The notes under the pieces were generated by a model. That model was not told the DNA's origin, did not search any database, and was given only the letters and a program-made list of their open reading frames with translations. A program made the position numbers and the translations under genes. Positions 11,252 through 34,568 of a stretch of 64,000 nt of DNA are shown piece by piece. Position 1 is the first letter of the stretch. Each line of letters begins with the position of its first letter. The DNA lies in assembly GCF_004116495.1 (NCBI RefSeq), contig NZ_PDKC01000001.1, forward strand, positions 124,001-188,000, read 5' to 3'. The stretch is from Arcobacter sp. CECT 8985 (GTDB taxonomy: Bacteria; Campylobacterota; Campylobacteria; Campylobacterales; Arcobacteraceae).

Positions 11252-12031
11252 TTATCTATGTTTTCTTTTAAAGTTAATCCAATCAATAACATTTTGTAAT
11301 GAGTCTTTATCTTTAATATTTACTTCCAAAATATCAACATTAGGTTTTAACTTTCTTGCAACTTCTTTTTCTTTTTCTAGATCATACTCAAAATAAGGAA
11401 GTAAATCAGTTTTTGTAAATAAAATCAAATCAGCTGCTCTAAACATTACTGGATATTTTGCAATTTTATCTTCACCTTCAGGAACTGAAACAAGTACAAT
11501 ATTCAAATGTGTTCCAACATCATATGAAGCTGGACAAACTAAGTTACCAACATTTTCTACAAAACATACATCAATATCATCAAGAGGCATATCATGCAAT
11601 CCTTTATGCACCATAAATGCATCTAAGTGACAAGCACTTCCTGTTTGAATTTGTACTGCTTTTATATCTTTTGCTTTTAATCTATCTGCATCTTTATTTG
11701 TTTCTAAATCACCTTCAACTACACCAAAATTGAAATCAACCATATCAGCAATATTTTCTAAAAGTGTAGTTTTACCACTTCCTGGACTACTCATAAGATT
11801 TATACCCAATACTTTATGTTCATTAAAGTGTGCTCTATTATGCGCTGCTTCGTGATCATTTTTATCTAATATTTTCTTTATTACTGAAACTGTTTTACTA
11901 TCATTTAATTGTGGGTTATGATGTAATGTTTCATGTGCTGCTTGATGGCTAGCACTACCATGTTCATGTGAGTGTTCATGATCGTGATGATGATCATGAT
12001 CTGTTATACTACATCCGCAATCTTTACACAT
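11252..12031 (-). CDS. hypB: Hydrogenase nickel incorporation GTPase HypB
   Basis: HypB is a GTPase that, with HypA, inserts nickel into the hydrogenase large subunit. The N-terminus has the high-affinity nickel motif MCKDCGC, followed by a histidine-rich tail (about 12 His between residues 12 and 39) that can store nickel. The P-loop is SSPGSGKTT (81-89), and the second metal site involves GSACHLDAFMVH and NLVCPASYD. Length is 259 residues. AAGGAG precedes ATG 12031. It is the first gene of the maturation operon, and a palindromic operator-like site lies 12 bases upstream of the start. Confidence 0.96.
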   Translation of the reverse strand: MCKDCGCSITDHDHHHDHEHSHEHGSASHQAAHETLHHNPQLNDSKTVSVIKKILDKNDHEAAHNRAHFNEHKVLGINLMSSPGSGKTTLLENIADMVDFNFGVVEGDLETNKDADRLKAKDIKAVQIQTGSACHLDAFMVHKGLHDMPLDDIDVCFVENVGNLVCPASYDVGTHLNIVLVSVPEGEDKIAKYPVMFRAADLILFTKTDLLPYFEYDLEKEKEVARKLKPNVDILEVNIKDKDSLQNVIDWINFKRKHR

Positions 12032-12042
12032 ATTATCTCCTT

Positions 12043-12056
12043 TGAATAACTATTCA
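12043..12056 (-). promoter_or_regulatory. TGAAT-N4-ATTCA palindrome upstream of hypB
   Basis: The sequence TGAATAACTATTCA is a palindrome with five-base arms and a four-base centre. On the minus strand it follows directly after a TAAAAT (-10-like, 12056-12061), so it should cover the transcription start, and it ends just before the hypB ribosome binding site. Closely similar sites lie before hydA1 and hydA2. Position over the start point suggests a repressor operator; TetR proteins bind palindromes of this kind. Confidence 0.55.
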
Positions 12057-12134
12057 TTTTATTAGTTTACTATTATTTTCTTAAATGATTTAGCGATTTT
12101 TTTTGAACTTATGTATTTTTTGAACTAAATAGTG

Positions 12135-19455: not shown

Positions 19456-21108
19456 TTATTTTTGTATTACGAAGTCCTTATTATAGTATATTTTGAAATT
19501 TTTTGTAATACTTTTATGAACTAATTTTAAAATTAAATCATTTGAAAAAATATCTCCAGTTAAACTAACACCATCTAAAGATACTTCTGTATGTACATCA
19601 TCAACTAATTTGGCAATATAGTCTGCAAAACTTTCAATATATCCTAAACATATAGTATTATCATCAAGCCCAGCAAGTTTAAAACTCATTCCTGATTGAA
19701 ATAATTTATGTAATAAAAACTCTTTATTAAAAATTTTTTCTGAATCTTTTAATTTATAATCAATTCGTGGTCCTTTTTCCAAAACAGAATCTATTGCTTT
19801 ATTAAAAACAATATTTTCATCTTCAATTTTAGAACTAAAACCTAATACTACTGCAACAATTTTCCATAAAGAATAAATATTATTATCTTTTAACATAGAA
19901 ATATCACAATTAATTGCATTTTCATAGATTTGTGGAAATTTTTCTTTATAATTATTTAAAAGTCTATTTGATGTTTCATCTTTTTTCAATATTTCAAATA
20001 TTTCATTTATTGATTTTGGCAATTTATAACTAACAATATCTAAAAAGCCTTCTATATCTTTTGAGTATAAACAGATATTATCATCATATTTAGTTGATGA
20101 ATAAAAGTTTAATATACTACTTTTATAAAAATCATATTCTTGTAAAAGTACCATAAAGTGAGCTTTTGCTTTTTCATCAAATTTAGAATAAATAACATCA
20201 AGAGATTTATCATATGATTTTGAAGATAAAATAATCGTTTTATCTTCAACAATTTTAATTTTCATAATATCAATATCTTTTATTTTTCCATCGTATGTTA
20301 ATTCATAATCAAAACTATCATTTTGATTATAAATTAAAAAATCAATATCATATTTTTCTAACTCTTTTGCTAAAAGATATAAAATCAAATCATTTACATA
20401 TCTAACATTTACATACTCTTGATTTAATGTATTTGTAAGTCTAAATACTTCGTTTACTCTTAAATCAATTGAAGGTTTTTCTATACTTGCTAATGCAACT
20501 ATCTCTTTTTTATTAGCTACTACTACTTTTGAAATATTTGCTAAATTTATAGATAATAATTTTACACTATTTTCAGTTTTATCTAATTTTCTAAAAATAA
20601 ATTCACCTGAGGTTGTTTTTATTTTTATACTATTATTTTCATTAATTAACTTTGCTATTGTTTCAAAAAGTTCTTTATTAGAAGTATAATTTTGTTCTTG
20701 ATTATTTTTTAAAAATTTTAATCTTTTTACATCACAAGTTGTACCACAAATAGAGCAAGAGACAAATGGATTATAAAAATCTTTACTATTACTATTTTCT
20801 ATTTGTTTTAAACATGAAGAACAAAAAGCAAAATCTAACTTCTCATTAGTTTTTATAACTTCGTATTCTTGTGGAATTTCTGGGACAACTTCTACTGTAC
20901 TATTTTTAAAAAATATTGACATTGGAAGTGTTTGACCTAATTCATCTGAAAATGAACCTAATTCTTCTTCACTTCCTTTTACATATAAAATGATATCTTT
21001 TTGTTTTGTAATTTTATATTCCAATTGCGATTTTTCTACAATATTTTGTAAAAAAAATAAAAATGTGTTATTATTTGAACTATACTCAAAACTAAATTTT
21101 AGGATCAT
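19456..21108 (-). CDS. hydE: Hydrogenase accessory protein HydE (copy 1), HypF-like
   Basis: HydE is encoded at the end of hydABCDE operons in Helicobacter and Wolinella and is needed for hydrogenase activity in Helicobacter; its mechanism is unclear. Here it has 550 residues. I see a HypF-like order: an N-terminal part resembling an acylphosphatase, a single zinc finger C96-x2-C99 and C118-x2-CG121 matching the first HypF finger, a YrdC-like stretch (VALASIEKPSIDLRV), and a C-terminal Kae1-like end (GVSLTGDIFSNDLILKLVHKSI against GGVFQNKTLLEKVINNL in HypF). The HypF histidine motif HHYAH is not obvious, so it is probably a degenerate paralogue. It overlaps hydD1 by 17 bases. Confidence 0.85.
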   Translation of the reverse strand: MILKFSFEYSSNNNTFLFFLQNIVEKSQLEYKITKQKDIILYVKGSEEELGSFSDELGQTLPMSIFFKNSTVEVVPEIPQEYEVIKTNEKLDFAFCSSCLKQIENSNSKDFYNPFVSCSICGTTCDVKRLKFLKNNQEQNYTSNKELFETIAKLINENNSIKIKTTSGEFIFRKLDKTENSVKLLSINLANISKVVVANKKEIVALASIEKPSIDLRVNEVFRLTNTLNQEYVNVRYVNDLILYLLAKELEKYDIDFLIYNQNDSFDYELTYDGKIKDIDIMKIKIVEDKTIILSSKSYDKSLDVIYSKFDEKAKAHFMVLLQEYDFYKSSILNFYSSTKYDDNICLYSKDIEGFLDIVSYKLPKSINEIFEILKKDETSNRLLNNYKEKFPQIYENAINCDISMLKDNNIYSLWKIVAVVLGFSSKIEDENIVFNKAIDSVLEKGPRIDYKLKDSEKIFNKEFLLHKLFQSGMSFKLAGLDDNTICLGYIESFADYIAKLVDDVHTEVSLDGVSLTGDIFSNDLILKLVHKSITKNFKIYYNKDFVIQK

Positions 21109-22339: not shown

Positions 22340-24070
22340 CTAGCAACTTGCCCCATAAATTGGGTCTACTTTATGAACACCTAAATCATTACCTTTAGTG
22401 TCCATTACATGTACTGCACAAGCAATACAAGGGTCGAAACTGTGAATAACTCTAATGATTTCTAATGGTTGAGTAATATCTTCAACTTTCATTCCTATTA
22501 GATTTGATTCATAAGGGCCAATAAGACCATTTGCATCTTTTGGACCTGCATTCCATGTTGAAGGAACAACAGCTTGATAATTTTCAATAACACCATTTTT
22601 AATTCTAACCCAGTGAGATAACATACCTCTTGGTACATCACCAATAAATCTACCTTTATACTCTTTATCTTTATCAATTTTATAAGAAGTATAAGTTTCT
22701 TTATCCACTTTTAGATTTTCAATTAAAGTATTAAATGTTTCTAATCCATTGTCAACAATTAATTTAGTTTGTAACATTCTAGCTGCTGTTCTACCTAAAG
22801 TTGTAAATAGTGCACCAACAGGTAATCCAGCTTCTTTTAAGAATTGATTAACAACTTTTTGAACTTTTTCATTTCCATTTGCATATGAAACTAACATACA
22901 AGCTAATGGTCCAACTTCCATTGGTTTACCATCATATCTTGGTGATTTAATCCATGAATATTTTTTGTTTTCATCAATTGATTTAGAGTGAATCATTTTC
23001 CCATCTGGTCCAACAGTTTCTCTATCTACAAAACCAGTATAATTTGGATTTGTTTTTCCATCATATGGATGTAATGGTTGATTATCTTTATACCAAGAGT
23101 GAGTTGCTTCTTCAGTAATTAAATCTTCATTAATTGGATATACTTTAGAAATATCACCATTCATAATAATACCACTATCAAATAAAAATTCTGTTCTATT
23201 TAATCTAATTGTATTATGAGCAATAAAGTTCATAACACCTCTTTGATCAGTAACTGAAGGATCATTTTTATAAGCTTGTGCAGCCATTAAAATATCTGCA
23301 TAATATGCATTATTTACAAAATCTTGACCTTTTTTAAATAATGTTAAAAATTCACCCATTCTTGATGGATCTAATAAATCCATGATACAAGTAACACCAC
23401 CAACAGTTAAACTTTGTGGATGTGGTTGTTTACCACCAAAAATAGCTGTCATTTTAGCCATATCTCTTTGAATTTCAAGTGCTTTTAAATAGTGAGATAA
23501 TGCAATTAAATTTTGTTCTGGAGTTAATTTAAATGATTTATTTCCCCAATAAGCATTTGCAAAAGGGCCAAGTTGTCCTTTTTCAACAAAAATTTTTACT
23601 TTATCTTGAACTTTTTTAAGTTCTCCTTCACCTGCTGCAACTGGATATTTAGTATATTTAAATGCCTCTTTTGCAGCTAATGCTGGATTTGCTTTTAAAG
23701 CAGAAACAACATCTACCCAATCTAATCCATGTAAATGATAGAAGTGAACTGGGTGATCATGCATAAATAATGCTTGATTCATAAGTGATCTTGTTAATTT
23801 TGCATTTAAAGGTGGTTCAATTTTTAAAGCATCTTCAACAGCTTCAATACCAGCTCTATAGTGAGAATAAGTACAAACACCACAAATTCTTTGCATTAAA
23901 AACCCTGCATCTCTTGGATCTCTATTTTTAACAATAGTTTCTAATCCTCTCCATAAAGTAGAAGTAGAAAATGCATTTTGAATTACATTATTTTCATCAA
24001 CTTCAACCTCAATTCTAAGATGTCCTTCAATTCTTGTAATTGGGTCTACAATAACTCTTTTTGTTGCCAT
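22340..24070 (-). CDS. hydB: [NiFe]-hydrogenase large subunit HydB (copy 1)
   Basis: The catalytic subunit of a periplasm-facing uptake hydrogenase, 576 residues. The four nickel-site cysteines are in RICGVC (C63, C66) and DPCIAC (C548, C551); RIEGH is near residue 13. After His554 comes a 22-residue C-terminal extension that HydD would remove. It has no signal peptide, as it is exported together with HydA. It begins three bases after hydA1. The strong match to HydB2 (for example VVPSTWNAGPKD against VVPSTWNAAPRD) shows that the two operons arose by duplication or related transfer. Confidence 0.96.
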   Translation of the reverse strand: MATKRVIVDPITRIEGHLRIEVEVDENNVIQNAFSTSTLWRGLETIVKNRDPRDAGFLMQRICGVCTYSHYRAGIEAVEDALKIEPPLNAKLTRSLMNQALFMHDHPVHFYHLHGLDWVDVVSALKANPALAAKEAFKYTKYPVAAGEGELKKVQDKVKIFVEKGQLGPFANAYWGNKSFKLTPEQNLIALSHYLKALEIQRDMAKMTAIFGGKQPHPQSLTVGGVTCIMDLLDPSRMGEFLTLFKKGQDFVNNAYYADILMAAQAYKNDPSVTDQRGVMNFIAHNTIRLNRTEFLFDSGIIMNGDISKVYPINEDLITEEATHSWYKDNQPLHPYDGKTNPNYTGFVDRETVGPDGKMIHSKSIDENKKYSWIKSPRYDGKPMEVGPLACMLVSYANGNEKVQKVVNQFLKEAGLPVGALFTTLGRTAARMLQTKLIVDNGLETFNTLIENLKVDKETYTSYKIDKDKEYKGRFIGDVPRGMLSHWVRIKNGVIENYQAVVPSTWNAGPKDANGLIGPYESNLIGMKVEDITQPLEIIRVIHSFDPCIACAVHVMDTKGNDLGVHKVDPIYGASC

Positions 24071-24073
24071 TTT

Positions 24074-25234
24074 CTACTCCTCTTCACCATCTTTTGGGTT
24101 TTTAAATTTTGAAATTGCTGCATGTGCTGCAATCCCTACACCTGTTGCTGCTAATAGTCCAATACCTATTTTATCAGCAGTTGCATCAGCACCTAATCCA
24201 CCAAATACAGTGTTATATAGTCTATCTGCTACAGGTTCTTCAAATGGTCCCATTGTATCCCAAAAATCAGGTTCACTACATCCAATACATCCATGTCCTG
24301 CTTGAATAGGCCAAGAAGTATGAGAATTAAATCTATTTTTACCACAGTTATTAAAAGTATAAGGTCCTTTACAACCTACTTTATATAAACAGAAACCTTG
24401 TTTTGCACCATCATCACCAAATTCTTCTACAAATTCACCTGCATCAAAGTGCCCTCTTCTTTCACATAAATCATGAATTCTTAATCCATATGCCCATTTT
24501 GGTCTATTATATGCATCTAAAGAAGGTAATGTTCCATAAAGTAAATAGTGTAGTAAAGTTCCCACAATATTTTTTTCACTTGGAGGACAACCAGGTACAT
24601 TAATAACAGTTTTATTTGTTACTTTTGATAGTGCAACTGCACCAGTTGGGTTTGGCATTGCAGCTTGTACACCACCAAATGCAGAACATGTACCAATTGC
24701 AAAAATAGCAGCTGCATGTTCACTTGCAAGTTTTGCATTTTCTTCACCAGTTTTACCATGTCCACCGATTGTTAAGTAGAATGAATTTTCACCTGCAGGT
24801 ATACCGCCTTCTACCATTAAAATATATTTACCTTTGTATTTTTCAATAGCATGTTCTAAATTATGTTCTGCTTGCCAACCAGCTGCAGCCATTAATGTTT
24901 CATGATATTCCAATGAAATATAATCAAAAATCAAAGAATCAATTGTTGGAGCATCTGTTCTTAATAAAGATTCAGAACATCCTGTACACTCTGCCATATG
25001 TAACCAAACAATTGGTAATCTATCACTAAGTTCTGCAGCTTTTGCCACTAGTGGAGTGAAATTTGCAGGTAAAGCTAACATTGCAGTCATAGCACCAGCC
25101 CATTTCATAAAATCTCTTCTAGAAAAACCTTTTTCTTCTAAAATTGATGGGATTGTTTTTTTATCATCAAGTTTTGGAAGTTTTTCTAAACTTGATAGTC
25201 TTTTTGATAACTTATTAAATAAATCAGTTTTCAA
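24074..25234 (-). CDS. hydA: [NiFe]-hydrogenase small subunit HydA (copy 1)
   Basis: The iron-sulfur subunit. A twin-arginine signal SRRDFMKW lies at about 38-45, followed by a hydrophobic stretch. The proximal-cluster motif is ECTGCSES (C83, C86), and further cysteines occur in PGCPPSE, VGCKGP and GCIGCSEPDF. A C-terminal hydrophobic helix (GIGLLAATGVGIAAHAAI) anchors it. I choose TTG 25234 as the start, with AAGGAAG six bases upstream. An ATG at 25273 would add MIHLFFLLLKG, an unlikely extra hydrophobic segment before a Tat signal, but it has a possible ribosome site and cannot be excluded. Confidence 0.92.
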   Translation of the reverse strand: MKTDLFNKLSKRLSSLEKLPKLDDKKTIPSILEEKGFSRRDFMKWAGAMTAMLALPANFTPLVAKAAELSDRLPIVWLHMAECTGCSESLLRTDAPTIDSLIFDYISLEYHETLMAAAGWQAEHNLEHAIEKYKGKYILMVEGGIPAGENSFYLTIGGHGKTGEENAKLASEHAAAIFAIGTCSAFGGVQAAMPNPTGAVALSKVTNKTVINVPGCPPSEKNIVGTLLHYLLYGTLPSLDAYNRPKWAYGLRIHDLCERRGHFDAGEFVEEFGDDGAKQGFCLYKVGCKGPYTFNNCGKNRFNSHTSWPIQAGHGCIGCSEPDFWDTMGPFEEPVADRLYNTVFGGLGADATADKIGIGLLAATGVGIAAHAAISKFKNPKDGEEE

Positions 25235-25326
25235 AATTCTTCCTTTTAATAAAAGAAAAAATAAATGAATCATCACTTTCTTCTAAAGCACTTCTTCCCT
25301 CATGCTCAAAAACCATAAAAGTTAAA

Positions 25327-25340
25327 TGAATAATCATTCA
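25327..25340 (-). promoter_or_regulatory. TGAAT-N4-ATTCA palindrome upstream of hydA1
   Basis: The sequence TGAATAATCATTCA has exact five-base arms and a four-base centre, matching the site before hypB. It lies between the terminator of the hydA2 operon and the hydA1 start, the only place where a hydA1 promoter can be. The precise -10/-35 pair is not clear; TTGAAA at the terminator edge and TATGGT downstream are candidates. Confidence 0.55.
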
Positions 25341-25507: not shown

Positions 25508-27034
25508 CTAGTAATCTAGTGTATATTTTTTAGACAATAAAGGTTTGAAGTTTACTGAAAGCTCTTTATAGGCTTTCTCAAGGAGTATTGAGTTAGAAAA
25601 CATATTCCCACAAAAAATTATATTTTTCACTTTTAAGTCACTATTAATCTCTTCTGCAGCAACTTTTATGAACTCACTAAGACTTTCATAGAAAGAATAT
25701 GCTAATAAAGAATTTTCAACATTTGCTATTTTGTAACTAAAAATTGAGTGTGCAATCTTTCTATAATCTAAATAATTCTTTCCATTAAGCTTTTGAATCT
25801 TCATATCTACTTGTATTCCACTTTTTATATTTGTAGATAATGCATAAGATTCAAACTCTTTATAATCTTTCATTCCAAGCATTACTGCAATAAAATTTAG
25901 AATTGAAACAAAACCATTTGTATTTAAAGGAAGTTCTGTTTTAAAGTTTTCAGGAAATTTTTTTCTATAATTCTCAACTAATCTTGCAGTATTTTCATCC
26001 ATTGAAGCAATCTCTTTCATACAAGAACTAATATTATTTTCAATATTTGGAATAAAAATAATATCTTTTATTCCTTTTGTCGGTACATTTAAACTTATTT
26101 TACTTTCATTGCTATTATATGAAAAATAAATCCCTAAACAATTTTCTGTTCTTTTATTTAATTTTTTAACATGTGTTTTAAATACTCCACCATTTTCATC
26201 AAATAACTCTTTTGATGAGTTATATATTTTTTTATCCTGAATATCATATGTAGGGAATATTGCCTTATCCCCACTTATTACATAATTTTCATCTTTAAAA
26301 TAACTAACTTCAATGTCTTTTTGTTTTACATCAATATCACTATAAATTAAAAAATCAATCTGTTTATTTTTTAAAGCTAGTGCAAACTTATATGTTTTAT
26401 CATCATCAGGTAATTTACAATTTACAAAAGAAATAGCTGAATATTGTTGTTCTTTATTTTGTAAAAAATTAAATTTTAATTTAACTAATGGTCTTTCAAT
26501 ACTACAAAGATTTTGCATATCTTTTGTTGATACTTCAAATAAAGAAGTTAATTTATTTGTATTTGAAACAAAAACATTAACTTTTGTTCTTTGTTCCAAT
26601 TTTTCTCTATTAATTTTATTTGGTAATGAAAATTTTTTTAAACCATTTGATGTATTTAATTCAATAATTTCACCACTTTCTAATCTATTTATTAAATTAG
26701 CATACTCATTTAAATCTGTATTTAGCAAATCTAATATTTTATTATTTGATAAAGAAACATTTTGTTTTATACCATCAAAATCAATAGGTTCATAATCTTC
26801 TTTAATATTTTCTATAAACTCTGCACCTTTTAAAAATATTGATAAAGGTAAATTTTTTTCTAAGTTTTGGAAAAATTGAGTAATTTTTTCTTCTTCATCA
26901 TTTATATTTAATATAAAAAATTTATTATATTTTTTTATTTCAATATTTATATTATCTTGTTCTATTTGCTCTTTTATAATATTTATATAATATTCATTTG
27001 TTGAAGCAAAATTAATTTTATAATACATTTGCAT
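25508..27034 (-). CDS. hydE: Hydrogenase accessory protein HydE (copy 2), without zinc finger
   Basis: A 508-residue paralogue of HydE1. The parts align by eye: KINFASTNEYYINIIKEQI at the start, LPLSIFLKGAEFIENI (HydE1: LPMSIFFKNSTVEVV), CSIERPLVKLKF (HydE1: ASIEKPSIDLRV) and IIFCGNMFSNSILLEKAYKEL near the end. The region that in HydE1 holds the zinc-finger cysteines has none here (residues about 85-130). I take ATG 27034, with GAGG nine bases upstream; the upstream ATG 27052 lies within hydD2. It ends the second hyd operon. Confidence 0.83.
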   Translation of the reverse strand: MQMYYKINFASTNEYYINIIKEQIEQDNINIEIKKYNKFFILNINDEEEKITQFFQNLEKNLPLSIFLKGAEFIENIKEDYEPIDFDGIKQNVSLSNNKILDLLNTDLNEYANLINRLESGEIIELNTSNGLKKFSLPNKINREKLEQRTKVNVFVSNTNKLTSLFEVSTKDMQNLCSIERPLVKLKFNFLQNKEQQYSAISFVNCKLPDDDKTYKFALALKNKQIDFLIYSDIDVKQKDIEVSYFKDENYVISGDKAIFPTYDIQDKKIYNSSKELFDENGGVFKTHVKKLNKRTENCLGIYFSYNSNESKISLNVPTKGIKDIIFIPNIENNISSCMKEIASMDENTARLVENYRKKFPENFKTELPLNTNGFVSILNFIAVMLGMKDYKEFESYALSTNIKSGIQVDMKIQKLNGKNYLDYRKIAHSIFSYKIANVENSLLAYSFYESLSEFIKVAAEEINSDLKVKNIIFCGNMFSNSILLEKAYKELSVNFKPLLSKKYTLDY

Positions 27035-27602
27035 GTCTAATATCCTCTTCATTTGGTATTCTATTTAAATGCTCACCGTTATAACTTCCTATTAACCCAT
27101 GTGCAATATCTTTTATTGATTTGTTATCTTTTTTAGAAATTTTTATACCAACTGATTCTACTTCTTTTAATGCTGTATTTATATAATCTTCAAATTTATC
27201 TTCTATTTTTTTTGTTAATCCTATTTCAACAGATACAATATCTTCTGGGATTATTCCCAAAATAGTAACTTGGGCATGTTTATCCAAAACTGAACAAATT
27301 TCTAACATCTCAACTATTTCAACTTCATGTGCTGTTTTTCTATAGTTTCCTAAACCCAATAATACATGTGATGGTAATCTAAAAATACTTCCTGTTTCAT
27401 CTTCTATTGAAACAGTATCTAAAATAATTACATTATCATACTCTTGGAAATAACTCATTAGTTTAAAGCCTAAAGTACCTCCATCAATTATCTCTAAGCT
27501 ATCATCAAAATCATAATTTTCTTCTAAATATTTAGCAGCATAAATACCTACTCCTTCATCTTTAAAAAGTAAATTTCCAACCCCTATAATAATATTTTTC
27601 AT
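27018..27602 (-). CDS. hydD: Hydrogenase maturation endopeptidase HydD (copy 2)
   Basis: An M52-family protease of 194 residues that should process HydB2. The motifs are NIIIGVGNLLFKDEGVGIYAA (Glu near 15), IDGGTLGFKLMSYF, VIILDTVSI and the His in RKTAHEVEIVEMLE. The C-terminus is longer than in HydD1 (HGLIGSYNGEHLNRIPNEED). It is 89 bases downstream of hydC2, with a hairpin in between, and overlaps hydE2 by 17 bases. Confidence 0.92.
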   Translation of the reverse strand: MKNIIIGVGNLLFKDEGVGIYAAKYLEENYDFDDSLEIIDGGTLGFKLMSYFQEYDNVIILDTVSIEDETGSIFRLPSHVLLGLGNYRKTAHEVEIVEMLEICSVLDKHAQVTILGIIPEDIVSVEIGLTKKIEDKFEDYINTALKEVESVGIKISKKDNKSIKDIAHGLIGSYNGEHLNRIPNEEDIRHANVL

Positions 27603-27691: not shown

Positions 27692-28399
27692 TTATTTATT
27701 TTTCTTTTTATCTTTAGCAAATTTATATCCACTAAATACAATAGCAATATCACCTTCTTGCCAAAAGATTGTTCTCCAAATTTGGTAATAAATATGTGAC
27801 ATCACCCACATAATTAATAAATACATTGTTGTATGATGAGCAATTCTTACTCCCATGTTACCTCCAAATACACTTAATGTCCAATCTGTACTAAAGTGTA
27901 ATATCCAAGGCCACCAATCCCCAATTGAACTATGTCCTGATGCTAATCCATGAACATAAAGTTGTAATCCAGTTAATAACATAAACACTAATAAAATATG
28001 AAATAGTGTAAAGAACATTATGTTATAACTATCACTATGAGAAGAATCAAATTTTTTTCTTCTATTAAATGTAATTAAATTAAAAAATACTTCACAAAAC
28101 TCTACAAAATTTTTCTTTGTTGGAAGTATCTTTTTATAAGGTTTTTCAAAATTTGAAAACAAATAAAGATATCCAATTAAAATTGCAGTTACATCAAAAA
28201 TAATTGCAACAATAAAATGTGCCCATCTATTCCAAGCCATTACATATTTATTAACAGCTGGATCTGCAATTAATGTTTGATAATAAGGGTACCCTATATA
28301 TAAACCGGTTGCAACTGCTACAACCATACAAATCGCATTCAGCCAATGAATCGTTCGCATGATTGGAGTCATTCTCTCAACCCTTTTAAAATTAGGCAC
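27692..28399 (-). CDS. hydC: Hydrogenase cytochrome b subunit HydC (copy 2)
   Basis: A 235-residue membrane cytochrome b for electron transfer from the second hydrogenase to the quinone pool. Four hydrophobic helices and His candidates in RTIHWLNAICM, RWAHFIVAII and RIAHHTTMYLLIMWVMSHIYYQ are visible. The start is GTG 28399, inside the last codons of hydB2, with a perfect AGGAGG five bases upstream; the overlap with hydB2 is eight bases. It differs clearly from HydC1, mainly in the loop with FNRRKKFDSSHSDSYN. Confidence 0.92.
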   Translation of the reverse strand: MPNFKRVERMTPIMRTIHWLNAICMVVAVATGLYIGYPYYQTLIADPAVNKYVMAWNRWAHFIVAIIFDVTAILIGYLYLFSNFEKPYKKILPTKKNFVEFCEVFFNLITFNRRKKFDSSHSDSYNIMFFTLFHILLVFMLLTGLQLYVHGLASGHSSIGDWWPWILHFSTDWTLSVFGGNMGVRIAHHTTMYLLIMWVMSHIYYQIWRTIFWQEGDIAIVFSGYKFAKDKKKNK

Positions 28400-30131
28400 G
28401 GCATCCTCCTGTTGGATCTATTTTATAAACACCTAACTCTTTACCTTTTGCGTCAATTATATGCACTGCACATGCAATACAAGGATCAAAACTGTGTACT
28501 GTTCTTAAAATTTCTAATGGTTGATCAGCATTTGCTACTTTTGTTCCTATTAGTGAAGATTCATATGCTCCTAATCTTCCTTTATAATCTCTTGGTGCTG
28601 CATTCCATGTTGAAGGAACAACTGCTTGATAATTTACAACTTTTCCATCTTTGATTTTTACCCAGTGACCTAAACTTCCCCTTGGAGCTTCTGCCATTCC
28701 ATAACCTTGAGTATCAACAGATACTTTATCAAAATCAAATTCTGTCCAAGTTGATAAATCACCATGAGCAACATTTGAAGCTAATTCATCACACCATTCC
28801 ATCATAATATCTGCCATTAATTCACTCTCAATTGCACGTGCTGCTGTTCTACCAACTGTAGAGAATAAAACTTTTGTTGGCAAATTGCCATTTTTTAAAA
28901 AAGTAGTTACATATTTTGTAATTCTTTCATCACCTTTTGCAACACCAACAATCATTCTAGCTAATGGCCCTACTTCCATTCTTTCGTCATTGTATAAAGG
29001 AGATTTAATCCATGAATATTTATTTTTTGTATCTAAATATGCAATATTATTCTCTTTTTTTCCAAAACCTGTATAGTTTGGTTTAGTCTCACCATCGAAT
29101 GGGTGAAGATTTGTAGTTCCTTCATACCATGCATGAGTAACATCTTCAGTAATTTTAGCTTGGTCTAGTTCATATACTTTTGATAAATCTTTATTTTTTA
29201 CAATACCTGAAGGGAATAACTTTTTAGATTCATAAAATGGTAAATCATCTAAATTATAATCGCCATAACACATATAGTTACCAACTCCTGCACCAATTCC
29301 TTCTAATGCTTCATCAGCGTACATTGTTCCAGCCATATATACATCTGGCAAATATGCTTCTTTACAAAATTTTCTACCAAGTTTTAGAATTTGTTTAAAT
29401 TTTGCTATTCTTGAAGGATTTTTAATATCTTGAACACAAGTTACTCCTCCAACAACTAATGATTGAGGATGTGGATTTTTACCACCAAAGATTGCCATCA
29501 TTTTACCAATTTCTCTTTGGATTTCTAAAGCATCAAGATAGTGAGAAAGTCCAATTAAATTCTGCTCAGGAGTTAATTTAAAACCTTTTGATCCCCAATA
29601 TGCATTACCAAATATCCCAAGTCTTCCTTGTTTTACATATTTAGTAACTCTATCTTGAACTTGTTTATATGTAGATTCACTTGCATTATAAGCATAATGT
29701 CCAGAAAGATTTGCCCATTTTGTAGCTTCTGCAACTGCTTTTTTAGGGTCTGCTTTCAATGCTTGCGTAATATCAACCCAATCAAGTGCATGTAGATGAT
29801 AAAAATGTACAATATGATCATGAACATAAAGTGCACCTTGCATTAAGTTTCTTACTAATCTAGCATTTTTAGGAATAGTTACACCAAATGCATGTTCAAC
29901 TGCTTCAATACTTCTTTGGTAGTGAGTACCTGTACAAACACCACAAATTCTCATTGCTAATAATCCACAATCTCTTGGATCTCTTCCTTTTAATATCTCT
30001 TCAATTCCTCTAAACATAGTAGAAGAAGCATAAGCATCAGTAACAACATTATTTTCATCAATTATTGCTTCAATTCTAAGATGTCCTTCGATTCTTGTTA
30101 TTGGATCAATTACTAAATGTTTTTTTGCCAT
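28392..30131 (-). CDS. hydB: [NiFe]-hydrogenase large subunit HydB (copy 2)
   Basis: A catalytic subunit of 579 residues. The cysteine motifs are RICGVC (about residues 62-67) and DPCIAC (C551, C554), and RIEGH is near residue 13. His557 is followed by a 22-residue extension to be cut by HydD2. Compared with HydB1 it carries different insertions (for example GAGVGNYMCYGDYNLDDLPFY). It is two bases downstream of hydA2. It should face the periplasm through the Tat signal of HydA2. Confidence 0.96.
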   Translation of the reverse strand: MAKKHLVIDPITRIEGHLRIEAIIDENNVVTDAYASSTMFRGIEEILKGRDPRDCGLLAMRICGVCTGTHYQRSIEAVEHAFGVTIPKNARLVRNLMQGALYVHDHIVHFYHLHALDWVDITQALKADPKKAVAEATKWANLSGHYAYNASESTYKQVQDRVTKYVKQGRLGIFGNAYWGSKGFKLTPEQNLIGLSHYLDALEIQREIGKMMAIFGGKNPHPQSLVVGGVTCVQDIKNPSRIAKFKQILKLGRKFCKEAYLPDVYMAGTMYADEALEGIGAGVGNYMCYGDYNLDDLPFYESKKLFPSGIVKNKDLSKVYELDQAKITEDVTHAWYEGTTNLHPFDGETKPNYTGFGKKENNIAYLDTKNKYSWIKSPLYNDERMEVGPLARMIVGVAKGDERITKYVTTFLKNGNLPTKVLFSTVGRTAARAIESELMADIMMEWCDELASNVAHGDLSTWTEFDFDKVSVDTQGYGMAEAPRGSLGHWVKIKDGKVVNYQAVVPSTWNAAPRDYKGRLGAYESSLIGTKVANADQPLEILRTVHSFDPCIACAVHIIDAKGKELGVYKIDPTGGCRA

Positions 30132-30133
30132 AT

Positions 30134-31369
30134 CTATTCTTCCTCGTTATGTTCTGATTTTTTTCCTGCAATTGCACTTGCAACCGCATGTGCTCCAATT
30201 CCTACTGCTGTTGCTGTTAATAATCCTAAACCGAACTCATCAACAGTTTTTTCAACACCACCTGTTGGCGCTTTTATATGTGCTCCTGCCATTGGTCTTT
30301 GATAAGCGTATTTATCCCAAAAATCAGGCTCACTACATCCTATACAACCACGACCAACACCAACTGGCCAGTTAGTACCTTCATTATATTTAATAATAGA
30401 ACAGTTATTAAATGTCATTGGTCCTTTACAACCAACTTTATATAAACACCAATTATTTTTTGCGCCATCATCCCCAAACTCTTCAACATATTCACCAGCA
30501 TCAAAGTGTGCTCTTCTTTCACAATTATCATGGATTCTATAACCAAAAGCAAATTTTGGTCTTAATAAAGAGTCTAACTCTGGAACTTGACCAGTTAAAA
30601 TATAATGTAAAATTACACCTACAATATTTGCAGGATTTGCAGGACATGCAGGAATATTAATTAAAGGTTTACCTTTTACCAAATCCATAACACCCACTGC
30701 ACCAGTTGGATTAGGAGAAGCTGCTGGAATACCTCCAAAAGTAGCACATGTACCAACTGCAACAACAGCAGCCGAATCTTTTGACATTCTCATTAAATGT
30801 TCATGAAAAGTTTCACCACTTGCACCAATAGTTCCATACATACCATTATTTGCCATAGGAATTGCACCTTCTACAAATAATAAATACTTTCCTTTAAAAT
30901 GCTCAACTGCATCATCTAATTGTCTATCAGCATCATGTCCTGCAGCAGCTTGTAATGTTTCATGAAACTCTAAACTAATTACATCAAATAATAGATCATC
31001 AACTGTAGGAGATGCACTTCTTAATAATGCCTCTGAGTTACCAGCACAGTCTTGAAGTTCTATCCAAACAACAGGTACTCTATTCATAAGTTCAGTTGCT
31101 TGGGCAACTAAAGGTTCAAACATTGAAGGAAGCATAAGTGTAGCAGTAGTAGCACTAACCCACTTCATAAAATCTCTTCTATTTATACCTTCTGTTTCTA
31201 TTACATCTATCATATCTATATCTTTTAGAGGTTCTTGTTTTTGTAATATAGATAATCTCTCTTTTGCTTTTTCAAAAAGGTTCTTGTAGTATTTATCACC
31301 TTTATTTGTATCAATTCTAGCAGACTTTTGGGTAAAGAATTTTTTTACCATATCTTGAGAATCAACCAT
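30134..31369 (-). CDS. hydA: [NiFe]-hydrogenase small subunit HydA (copy 2), Asn in proximal cluster motif
   Basis: An iron-sulfur subunit of 411 residues with a long N-terminal region and a Tat signal INRRDFMKW (62-70). The proximal-cluster motif reads DCAGNSEALL: C108 is present but the second cysteine is Asn111, whereas HydA1 has ECTGC. An Asn at this place is also seen in cyanobacterial HupS. Other cluster cysteines (PACPANP, VGCKGP, GCIGCSEPDF) are kept, as is a C-terminal membrane helix. AAGGAG precedes ATG 31369. It opens the second hyd operon. Confidence 0.95.
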   Translation of the reverse strand: MVDSQDMVKKFFTQKSARIDTNKGDKYYKNLFEKAKERLSILQKQEPLKDIDMIDVIETEGINRRDFMKWVSATTATLMLPSMFEPLVAQATELMNRVPVVWIELQDCAGNSEALLRSASPTVDDLLFDVISLEFHETLQAAAGHDADRQLDDAVEHFKGKYLLFVEGAIPMANNGMYGTIGASGETFHEHLMRMSKDSAAVVAVGTCATFGGIPAASPNPTGAVGVMDLVKGKPLINIPACPANPANIVGVILHYILTGQVPELDSLLRPKFAFGYRIHDNCERRAHFDAGEYVEEFGDDGAKNNWCLYKVGCKGPMTFNNCSIIKYNEGTNWPVGVGRGCIGCSEPDFWDKYAYQRPMAGAHIKAPTGGVEKTVDEFGLGLLTATAVGIGAHAVASAIAGKKSEHNEEE

Positions 31370-31385
31370 TATATCTCCTTCAATT

Positions 31386-31391
31386 ATTATA
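31386..31391 (-). promoter_or_regulatory. -10 box of hydA2 promoter
   Basis: On the minus strand a perfect TATAAT lies 17 bases before the hydA2 ATG and directly after the TGAA-type palindrome. A TTTACA sits about 20 bases upstream as a loose -35. The leader would be about ten bases, just enough for the ribosome binding site. Confidence 0.5.
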
Positions 31392-31392
31392 C

Positions 31393-31409
31393 AAATGAAT
31401 GTTCATTTA
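31393..31409 (-). promoter_or_regulatory. TGAA-type palindrome in hydA2 promoter
   Basis: The sequence AAATGAATGTTCATTT is a palindrome (arms AAATGAA/TTCATTT, centre TG) and also fits TGAAT-N4-ATTTA, one mismatch from the sites before hypB and hydA1. It lies immediately upstream of the TATAAT box, where bound protein would block RNA polymerase. Confidence 0.55.
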
Positions 31410-31501
31410 TCTGTAAAAAAATAGCTATATACATCTTATTTAAAACTTAATATTTTAAGATAGATTTAATAAAAAGTGATATCAAAGTAGTTTTTTGAAG
31501 A

Positions 31502-31547
31502 AAAATATTATATTTTGTCACAATAATGCCCCAAAATATAATATTTT
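31502..31547. repeat. 16-bp perfect inverted repeat between hupL and hydA2
   Basis: The arms AAAATATTATATTTTG (31502-31517) and its exact complement (31532-31547) enclose a 14-base loop containing the only GC-rich bases. It lies about 85 bases downstream of the hupL stop and 130 bases upstream of hydA2. It could end hup transcription or bind a regulator of hydA2; T-rich runs follow but are not adjacent. Confidence 0.6.
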
Positions 31548-31630
31548 GTAAAGTTTCATTTACTTTTTTTAGAAAAAAAATAATATTTTTATAAATTTTA
31601 GTAATGTTACATTTTTGCACATTTTCTTAT

Positions 31631-32986
31631 TTATTGTGTTGTACATACAGAGCATACATCAAAACTTCGTAAGATTATATGAGCTTTTTCTATACTATTT
31701 GCACCAATGATGGCATTTTGGGCAACGCCTAAATTATTATTGATTCCTGGTCCTAAATTCCAAACAGAAGGAGTAATTACATCATATTTTTTTATAATAC
31801 CATTATCAATTGTTATATTATGCAATAAAGAACCTCTTGCTGCTTCAACTACAGATTTTGCTGAAACATTACCTAGTTCATCTAAAGAGATATTAGGTTT
31901 AATATAAGACTCTTCACTTATATCTATCTGTTTTATTAGTTTTTTTGTTGTATAAACTAAATGAACTAATTCATCCATTCTTGCAAAAACTCTTGTAAAA
32001 ACAGAATCATTAAATTTCTTATGAATGTTTTTTATAAGTTTTCTATTTTTTAACAAAGCTCTTGATAAAGGTCCTGTTTCGTATGCTTTATTATTATAAA
32101 GTGCTGTTTTAGCCCAAGTATACTCATTTGCTTTTCTTTTTTCATTAACTTTGAAACTATTTAAATCTTTTTCTTCAATTAATGATAAATCAATGGCTTG
32201 TCTATTTTTTAATTCAATTCTTCCTGCTTTAAATAAATTATTTGAAGATAAAACAATATGTCTATTATAACTCTTACCAATATTTTCCAAATCATTTTTA
32301 AAACATAAATCTTTAAAATCTTTTAATGCACTATTTTGATTATATAAAAATGAAAAATCAGACATATTAAGATAATCATCAATATCAATGCCTACTAGCT
32401 CTTTTTCTAAGAAATTTATAGTTTGATCAAGATAATTTTCCATACTAATTAAATCAAAAAGAGTTGGATCACTCATAACTCCACCAGGAATCATATATGA
32501 ACTATGTGGCCATTGACCAGCAAAAACTGCTAATGCTTTTATACTTTCACTTGCAGCAAATGTTCCTTTTCTCCATGATTCACCTTTTATTGCTTGATAT
32601 TTCGAATATTTATTATCCTTTGATAACTTTGCAATATCTGGCATTATAAAAATATAAAACCATTTAAGATGAGAATCAATAATTTCTATGTTTAGCCCTA
32701 TTTCTCTTAATAATTTAGCTTTATTAGTAATCTCTAAAGGTTCATTTGATACTTTATAAATATTTTCTAAAGCCTCAGCTGTAGCTTTTAAATGAGCTTG
32801 TCCACAAATGCCACAAATTCTTGGTGTATAAATTAAGGCATCAAGTGCTGGTTTATTTTCTAAAATATATTCAAAACCTCTAAAATTCAAAAATTGAATT
32901 TGTGCATTTTCTATTTTTTCATTTTCCCAATTACAGACTAACTTTGCTTCACCTTCTATTCTTTCAACTATATTTAATGTTTTCAT
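31631..32986 (-). CDS. hupL: Soluble group-2 [NiFe]-hydrogenase large subunit, sensor-like
   Basis: A 451-residue large subunit, much shorter than HydB. The first nickel motif RICGIC (C58, C61) is intact. The second reads DVCSVCTTQ and ends the protein at residue 451: both cysteines are kept, but Pro is Val, the usual final His is Gln, and there is no C-terminal extension. Lack of a cleavable extension is a known trait of H2-sensing (HoxC/HupV-type) hydrogenases. RIEGE replaces RIEGH near residue 9. No protease gene is adjacent. It overlaps hupS by four bases. It may be a sensor or an unusual cytoplasmic uptake enzyme. Confidence 0.88.
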   Translation of the reverse strand: MKTLNIVERIEGEAKLVCNWENEKIENAQIQFLNFRGFEYILENKPALDALIYTPRICGICGQAHLKATAEALENIYKVSNEPLEITNKAKLLREIGLNIEIIDSHLKWFYIFIMPDIAKLSKDNKYSKYQAIKGESWRKGTFAASESIKALAVFAGQWPHSSYMIPGGVMSDPTLFDLISMENYLDQTINFLEKELVGIDIDDYLNMSDFSFLYNQNSALKDFKDLCFKNDLENIGKSYNRHIVLSSNNLFKAGRIELKNRQAIDLSLIEEKDLNSFKVNEKRKANEYTWAKTALYNNKAYETGPLSRALLKNRKLIKNIHKKFNDSVFTRVFARMDELVHLVYTTKKLIKQIDISEESYIKPNISLDELGNVSAKSVVEAARGSLLHNITIDNGIIKKYDVITPSVWNLGPGINNNLGVAQNAIIGANSIEKAHIILRSFDVCSVCTTQ

Positions 32987-33876
32987 TCTTCTATTAACTT
33001 TTTATGTAATCTATCAATTTTAAATGTTTTTGCAACACCAGTAAGAGTCAAATATGCTCTTTTATTTATACCCAAAGGAACTTCAGAGGGAATACCAATA
33101 TTTTTCTTTGTTTGTAACATATTTGTTCTTGGGAAATCAAATTCAGTACAACCAATACAAGGCATTCCTGCTCTTGTTTTTGTATTTACATCATTCCATA
33201 AGATTCTATTACAATTACTATGAGTCATAGGACCTCTACAACCCTCTTCATAAAATAAACAACCCTCTTTATGTCCAAATGATTTTGCTTCTACTTTCCA
33301 TTCAAAATATTCATTTCTTGTACATCCATGATGAGCAAGTCCAAAATATATATTTTTAGGTCGTGAGTACTCATCTAAAGAAATAGTTTCATACTCTTTT
33401 AGTGTAAAAAGGGTTTGAAGGATCCACTCTGGATGAACAGGACACCCTGTAAGATTTATAATTGGTTGTTTTAATTTTTTCAACTCTTCAAGATTTAAAA
33501 TATCTTTTAAGCCTTTTATATCACTATTTTGTTCAAATTTGGCATGTATTCCACCATATGATGCACAAGAGCCAACACTAATAATATATTTTGCTTTTTT
33601 TGAAACCTTTTTTAATAACTTCACAATATTATTATCAGATATTTTATAAAAGTCTTCATTTGATGTAACAGCACCTTCTAAAAGTAAAAAATCTATCTCT
33701 TTTAGCTCTAATACATTATCAATTGTAGTTTCAGTCGTAATTGAAGGATGATAAAAAAAATCAAAACTATTTAAAAGTAGTTCAAATCTAGAGGGATTTG
33801 AACTTAATAAAGAATGGGTATTTCCATTGCAAGTAATTGCTTGAAGCCAAACAATTTTTGGTTTATATTGCTTCAT
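32983..33876 (-). CDS. hupS: Soluble group-2 [NiFe]-hydrogenase small subunit, HupS/HupU-like
   Basis: A 297-residue small subunit without a Tat signal or membrane anchor, so it is cytoplasmic. It resembles cyanobacterial HupS closely: CRGPMTHSNCNRILWND, TRAGMPCIGCTEFDFP and PSEVPLGINKRAYLTLTGVAK. The proximal motif is TCNGNTHSLL, with C16 and Asn19 instead of a second Cys, as known for HupS. The gene overlaps tetR by 14 bases and hupL by four bases, so the three are one translational unit. Group-2 small subunits without a Tat signal include both uptake enzymes and H2 sensors. Confidence 0.9.
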   Translation of the reverse strand: MKQYKPKIVWLQAITCNGNTHSLLSSNPSRFELLLNSFDFFYHPSITTETTIDNVLELKEIDFLLLEGAVTSNEDFYKISDNNIVKLLKKVSKKAKYIISVGSCASYGGIHAKFEQNSDIKGLKDILNLEELKKLKQPIINLTGCPVHPEWILQTLFTLKEYETISLDEYSRPKNIYFGLAHHGCTRNEYFEWKVEAKSFGHKEGCLFYEEGCRGPMTHSNCNRILWNDVNTKTRAGMPCIGCTEFDFPRTNMLQTKKNIGIPSEVPLGINKRAYLTLTGVAKTFKIDRLHKKLIEE

Positions 33877-34459
33877 CGCTTTTCAAAGCTCTAAATATAT
33901 TTTCAGCAATACCATCAGAATATTGTAATAAATCTTTATCTAGAACTTTTTCTCCACTTAAAAAAGCAAAACCACCTAAACATCCCATAATCATTGCAAA
34001 TGCTGTAAAGAAGTCTTGTTCTCTAAATTCACCACTATTAGCACCTTCATCAAGAAATATCATTACTTCTGTTACAAATTCACTTACACATAAAAAACCT
34101 TCACAACCTTTTGCAAAAACTTCTCTATTTGATAAGTAAACTCTTAAAAAATACTCAATTATTTCTGGTGAATTTTTTACATTTTCTAAATATTGTTTTG
34201 TAAATAAGAAAATCTTCTCTTTTGAAGAAATTTCCATTTGATTTATTTTTCTAAGTTCAATTGCTAGTATATTAGTTGAATATCTAATAGCATATTTTGC
34301 TAATTCCTCTTTAGAAGAGAAATAATTATACATATTTCCAACACTCATTTTCATAGCTTTTGCAATATCAGGAATTGTAGTATTATAAAATCCCTTTGTA
34401 GAAAAAAGTTTTAATGCATTTTCAATAATATTATTTTTTTTTAACTCTTTTGTTGACAA
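33863..34459 (-). CDS. TetR/AcrR family transcriptional regulator, putative hydrogenase repressor
   Basis: A 198-residue one-component repressor. The N-terminal HTH reads IIENALKLFSTKGFYNTTIPDIAKAMKMSVGNMYNYFSSKEELAKYA (about 11-56), the standard TetR signature. The C-terminal domain, about 130 residues, is not recognised; it has three cysteines (119, 124, 160). I choose TTG 34459 (STKELKKNN), with AAAGG about eight bases upstream; an ATG at 34495 has none. It is the first gene of tetR-hupS-hupL. Palindromes typical of TetR operators lie before hypB, hydA1 and hydA2, so these are its likely targets. A half-site (TGAATGAAAAT) lies upstream of its own gene. Confidence 0.85.
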   Translation of the reverse strand: MSTKELKKNNIIENALKLFSTKGFYNTTIPDIAKAMKMSVGNMYNYFSSKEELAKYAIRYSTNILAIELRKINQMEISSKEKIFLFTKQYLENVKNSPEIIEYFLRVYLSNREVFAKGCEGFLCVSEFVTEVMIFLDEGANSGEFREQDFFTAFAMIMGCLGGFAFLSGEKVLDKDLLQYSDGIAENIFRALKSDEAI

Positions 34460-34568
34460 ATAGTTTACCTTTAAATAATTTACAATAATAAGCATATGAT
34501 AGTATAATTTATGTTAATAGTGAATGAAAATATATATAATTTATAATTATGAGTTTGTATTAATAAAG

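Follow-up and report, generated by a model that had tools for sequence, protein, structure and literature searches.

The window, by which we mean the whole 64 000-nucleotide stretch of DNA analysed here, carries a tetR–hupS–hupL module that recurs across Campylobacteria and in Aquificota, and a palindromic predicted operator is found upstream of the uptake hydrogenase and maturation genes in genomes that carry the module. We propose that TetR and HupSL probably act together as an H2 sensor and switch that relieves repression of these genes.

Gene organization of the tetR–hupSL locus

The three genes lie on the minus strand and overlap by 14 bases (tetR/hupS) and 4 bases (hupS/hupL), in agreement with the preliminary description of this DNA (Table 1). 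That description also sited them beside two uptake hydrogenase operons, and both were found: hupL is followed on its 3' side by hydA1, hydB1, hydC and a protease gene and then by a second set, hydA2B2C. Both sets are Tat-exported, and the maturation genes hypB, hypC, hypD and hypE are located farther along the window. The true start of tetR is likely the TTG at 34459, since orthologues start there and the first residues of the predicted model have low pLDDT.

HydA1 differs from HydA2 in its proximal cluster, where Asn replaces the usual Cys (CAGN versus the normal CTGC). Each hyd set is followed by a gene for a large protein (19456-21108, 550 residues; 25508-27052, 514 residues), the 514-residue one displaying a weak match to the C-terminus of HypF.

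Table 1. Coordinates of the module, the predicted operators and their proposed target genes in the window
Feature	Position	Strand	Description
tetR	33863..34495	-	TetR-family regulator, Pfam TetR_N 6e-15; orthologues in 115/397 class genomes; AF2 pLDDT 90.5
hupS (huaS)	32983..33876	-	Cytosolic hydrogenase small subunit, Tat signal absent
hupL (huaL)	31631..32986	-	Probable group 2d [NiFe] large subunit, CGIC...DVCSVCTT, without C-terminal extension
Predicted operator TAAATGAACATTCATTTG 5' of hydA1	31392..31409	-	PWM score 22.6; kept in nearly all of 94 carriers
hydA1	30134..31369	-	Tat-exported uptake hydrogenase small subunit, TIGR00391; proposed target operon 1
hydB1	28392..30131	-	Group-1 uptake hydrogenase large subunit; PF00374 and tree
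Predicted operator TGAATGATTATTCATTTA 5' of hydA2	25323..25340	-	PWM score 25.5; exact pattern match
hydA2	24074..25276	-	Second uptake hydrogenase small subunit, proposed target operon 2
hydB2	22340-24070		Next gene after hydA2
Predicted operator TGAATAACTATTCATTTT	12043..12060	+	11 bp 5' of hypB start; PWM score 20.3
hypB	11252..12031	-	First gene of hyp maturation operon, proposed target operon 3

Classification of HupSL

The N-terminus of HupS (MKQYKPKIVWLQ) has no Tat leader, and HupL (RSFDVCSVCTTQ at its C-terminus) ends at the second nickel motif, DVCSVCTTQ, with no cleavable extension, and carries RIEGE. All of these features had been described previously and were confirmed; RIEGE, however, proved to be an instance of a general group 2 trait, an acidic residue at the last position, which is D in groups 2a and 2b, E in the HupL clade of Campylobacterota and Aquificota, and H in group 1. 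In lacking the maturation extension HupL resembles group 2b, unlike group 2a and group 1. A 41-row tree placed the HupL sequences of Campylobacterota and Aquificota in one clade (support 100/100), set apart from HoxC/HupV (2b), Huc-like (2a) and group 1 sequences, with the 2b references forming a clade of their own (100/99). HupSL, with no Tat leader and no clustering with group 1, is therefore distinct from the ordinary uptake enzymes, whilst its likening to the HoxBC/HupUV-type sensors of group 2b was not upheld, as HupL did not cluster with HoxC/HupV. The Campylobacterota–Aquificota clade has been labelled group 2d, or huaSL, in A. butzleri, Sulfurospirillum and Venenivibrio (PMC12286921, PMC10762115), with which HupSL shares gene context and organisms, and judged by this shared clade and context HupL probably belongs to group 2d.

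HupS retains the ligand motifs for three Fe-S clusters, except for Asn19 in place of the usual second proximal Cys, an Asn also seen in group 2a references and HydA1. At the two gas-channel positions, which are Ile and Phe in RH-type enzymes, Ile60 is fixed and position 113 is variable (F, V, S, T or Y). The best PDB sequence match of HupL was Huc, and the closest among the named genomes reached was that of Malaciobacter halophilus (67 % identity). Huc, a mycobacterial group 2a enzyme, shares with HupS the Asn at the proximal cluster position, but Huc-type large subunits have a C-terminal extension and an adjacent protease gene, unlike HupL, and belong to a separate clade.

The HoxBC–HoxJ–HoxA and HupUV–HupT–HupR systems likewise contain a cytosolic two-subunit [NiFe] hydrogenase with no Tat signal, encoded beside the uptake hydrogenase genes that it is presumed to control, and with a large subunit (HoxC/HupV) that stops right after the CxxC motif with no maturation extension. 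HupSL differs from these in clade, in the proximal cluster Asn where they have Cys, and in its partner, which is a one-component regulator of the TetR family and a probable repressor, in contrast to the histidine kinase and NtrC-type activator (HoxA/HupR) of the 2b systems. The noted absence of HoxJ from the setting extended to the whole genome, in which a HoxJ query returned only generic kinase domain matches (best E 1.7e-14 over residues 275-442) and no orthologue.

Linkage and distribution of the module

Among 397 Campylobacteria genomes, HupL was present in 113 and TetR in 115, mostly the same genomes, and the module, with hupS between tetR and hupL, spanned 37-38 of 68 genera. The tetR-hupS-hupL order was intact in 101/101 loci (100 loci of the class, each up to 20 kb, plus the window), an arrangement far beyond chance, and in the class loci hydAB usually came after hupL within ~450 bp. 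Within Arcobacteraceae, TetR adjoined HupL in nearly every genome with HupL. TetR retained at least 50 % identity where HupL dropped to ~40 %, and by this sequence measure it is the more conserved partner. Group-1 HydB was present in every HupL genome checked; its overall count was 364 genomes, ~250 of them without the module, indicating that most genomes with HydB manage without tetR-hupSL.

A profile scan of named genomes revealed the same trio in Aquificota, namely Persephonella, Hydrogenothermus and Hydrogenothermaceae MAGs. A TetR orthologue (52–63 %) was identified in 10/10 Aquificota HupL genomes searched, most of which had no visible tetR at the hupL locus, and in one of the ten (G466) tetR shared a contig with hupSL but lay a long way from it. 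The linkage, suggested earlier as a check within Arcobacteraceae, is thus conserved well outside that family.

Departures from this pattern were also observed. Two genomes, G418 (L208:4001-4843) and G239 (L207:3974-6150), carried tetR and an operator-hydA arrangement with no hupSL, and in G239 a flavoprotein gene occupied the place expected for hupSL. A truncated TetR remnant was found in G298 (L209:3983-4282), a genome without HydB and HupS, as if these had been lost jointly. In Sulfurimonas paralvinellae, hupL of the module was located on a 49.8 kb plasmid (NZ_CP041407.1:30895-32184), suggesting that the module is probably mobile between cells.

A predicted operator and its regulon

An unsupervised count of palindromes in the gaps between hupL and hydA identified AATGA-n4-TCATT in 67/94 and TGAAT-n4-ATTCA in 59/94, against no more than 6 for any palindrome in shuffled gaps. 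The refined motif, T(G/A)AATGAnyATTCATTT, contained 22.6 bits. In 2.01 Mb of locus sequence it matched 141 sites 5' of hydA genes but just 6 sites 5' of tetR, with another 32 at other positions. For cross-validation, a motif built from a single family was used to search the remaining families, and the two sets were then exchanged. At a threshold of 12, sites were recovered in 52/54 hydA gaps and, in the reverse direction, 38/40 (shuffles 6/1080 and 4/800), whilst at a threshold of 14 they were present upstream of hydA in 44/54 and 38/40 cases and upstream of tetR in 0/60 and 6/41.

The site was found at none of nine hydA promoters in same-genus genomes that have hydAB and no tetR-hupSL. Class-wide, the strict pattern was present in 88/115 genomes with TetR versus 13/282 without (P=5e-49; genomes sorted by hand from two tables), compared to 16/115 and 16/282 for a reversed-pattern control. 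The site was also present in G414, where hydA is distant from tetR. In Aquificota, whose sites were kept out of motif training, it was located ~28-30 bp upstream of hydA (L257, L261, L265 and L267) or at the start (L271), and in L277 it preceded hypC instead. A consensus -10 box just 3' of the operator was not enriched (33/90 versus 38 % expected). Autoregulation of tetR via the same operator was considered and rejected, the site being weak or absent 5' of tetR in most genomes.

A PWM scan of the window returned three sites, 5' of hydA1, hydA2 and hypB, in keeping with the earlier prediction that TetR controls hyd and hyp genes, and a putative TetR regulon of uptake and maturation genes is strongly supported by these data. 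We found no report in the open-access literature of this operator or of a link between TetR and uptake hydrogenase genes, nor any DNA-binding, mutant or H2-response test of TetR. The operator and predicted regulon of a group 2d-linked TetR are new, and the papers found give no regulator for huaSL.

A fourth exact site was identified outside the window, on contig C33 of the same genome (L218:5999-6016). Directly behind it is a 31-residue ORF with a single membrane span (MFITEILLFIVSGLLAFAGFSWIVGLFVKEK; L218:5881-5976, minus strand). This ORF, of 30-31 residues, is conserved in sister genomes and likewise stands behind a perfect operator in G080, G081, G056, G059 and G068. It may encode an H2-regulated small membrane subunit. 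In G057 (L226:5999-6016), the operator was located 5' of a formate-dehydrogenase-like accessory pair (a 4Fe-4S protein and a TorD-like protein), suggesting spread of the regulon to formate-dehydrogenase-like genes.

Features of the TetR protein

TetR contains a TetR_N DNA-binding domain and an all-helical fold, as in members of the TetR/AcrR family. The AF2 model was confident, and its closest fold as determined with Foldseek was FadR (3whb, E 6e-7). The three cysteines reported for the ligand domain are all present in the C-terminal domain (C131, C136 and C172), with differing conservation: the C131/C136 pair, forming C-x-G-x-x-C, was invariant in 165/165 TetRs (101/101 plus 64/64, Aquificota included), whereas C172 was not conserved. 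The pair maps to the alpha6-alpha7 loop, between predicted helix H110-122 and the start of H135-153. The redox regulators NemR and QsrR likewise have the TetR fold, and their conserved cysteines also lie outside the domain that binds DNA; TetR differs from them in its CxGxxC in the alpha6-alpha7 loop and its link to a hydrogenase.

A proposed H2 switch and its alternatives

In the proposed switch, TetR (which we term 'HuaR') would bind the palindromic operator at the promoters of uptake hydrogenase and hyp operons and repress them. We infer both the binding and its sign from sequence and consider them very likely. HupSL (HuaSL, probable group 2d), which is encoded in the same operon as TetR and is mostly outside the reach of that operator, would serve as the H2-sensing input, an assignment that we regard as probable. 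In the presence of H2, HupSL would oxidize it and TetR would release the operator. In the likeliest route, HupS would donate electrons to the C-x-G-x-x-C pair that is invariant in TetR, through thiol/disulfide chemistry or a bound metal, the alternative being direct contact between HupSL and TetR with no electron transfer. Redox chemistry at the Cys pair is a tentative conjecture. So, to a similar degree, is the fuller picture of an H2 sensor that works without phosphorylation in Campylobacterota and Aquificota, with hydrogenase and one-component repressor coupled to each other, in which HupSL may pass electrons from H2 directly to the Cys-x-Gly-x-x-Cys of TetR and so switch its DNA binding.

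Published expression data bear on the switch in both directions. In A. butzleri grown on H2, both hynAB sets were up 2.3-6.2-fold and huaSL was down (PMC12286921). The rise of hynAB fits derepression of hyd genes by H2, whilst there is no operator to account for the drop in huaSL. The main published counter-evidence comes from S. multivorans, in which adding H2 left the hydB transcript unchanged and there was almost no expression of hupL (PMC5357620), even though the genus has both module and operator; masking by self-made H2 could explain the missing response. The same study noted the TetR gene 5' of hupSL and read it in passing as a local repressor (PMC5357620). Many TetR regulators do act on their own operon, yet the operator is mostly absent 5' of tetR and present 5' of hydA, which speaks against that reading. 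Since the operator also tracks hydA where hydA is unlinked from tetR and occurs 5' of hyp genes, we consider it very unlikely that TetR represses hupSL only.

HupSL, with motifs for a full Fe-S chain, could also be an ordinary enzyme. It would then be a working cytosolic uptake hydrogenase that feeds low-potential electrons to ferredoxin or the rTCA cycle, a role put forward for hydrogenase III of Aquifex, with TetR controlling all H2 genes via another ligand. Low-potential electron supply is indeed the role proposed for the cytosolic enzyme of Nautilia and S. denitrificans, the Nautilia authors having labelled their group 2 enzyme H2-sensing from phylogeny and nonetheless proposed ferredoxin roles. 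The full set of Fe-S ligand motifs in HupS and the fold of TetR, nearest to acyl-CoA-binding FadR, point the same way. So do G239 and G418, where TetR with its cysteines and the operator are retained in the absence of HupSL, suggesting that TetR may have another input; these two genomes would be accounted for either by a second input or by recent loss of HupSL. However, in S. denitrificans the cytoplasmic hydrogenase was transcribed and soluble uptake activity was not detected (PMC4149538), and huaSL decreases with H2 in A. butzleri. In both phyla, moreover, HupSL is seldom found in genomes without this TetR, and the TetR cysteines are invariant, such that we consider a purely enzymatic role rather unlikely. 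The cysteines would also suit a general repressor responding to O2, redox or sulfur stress, with HupSL only re-reducing TetR and H2 acting indirectly; NemR and QsrR are examples of TetR proteins that sense redox state. The predicted targets are mostly hydrogenase and maturation genes and not stress genes, making this improbable.

If the H2 switch is correct, group 2d [NiFe]-hydrogenases, so far without an assigned role, would gain a function, and H2 sensing with a one-component repressor would have evolved in hydrogen oxidizers of vents and sediments. H2 control of uptake hydrogenases would also become predictable from sequence in relatives of Arcobacter, Sulfurimonas, Nautilia and Persephonella. 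The role of group 2d enzymes and the stated lack of an H2 sensor in S. multivorans would then have a single testable answer in the module, with a named operator, targets and two cysteines.

Related TetR genes

Runella TetR genes adjoining a group 2 hydrogenase were examined by eye and set aside as non-orthologous, with CxGxxC absent. Three TetR paralogues were found in other contexts. One (L217:8071-8652) was beside a hydrogenase/complex-I-like operon with a similar operator at L217:8735-8752, another (L216:8143-8724) was beside molybdate transport genes with a similar operator at L216:8788-8805, and the last (L215:8693-9349) was beside selD-type genes.
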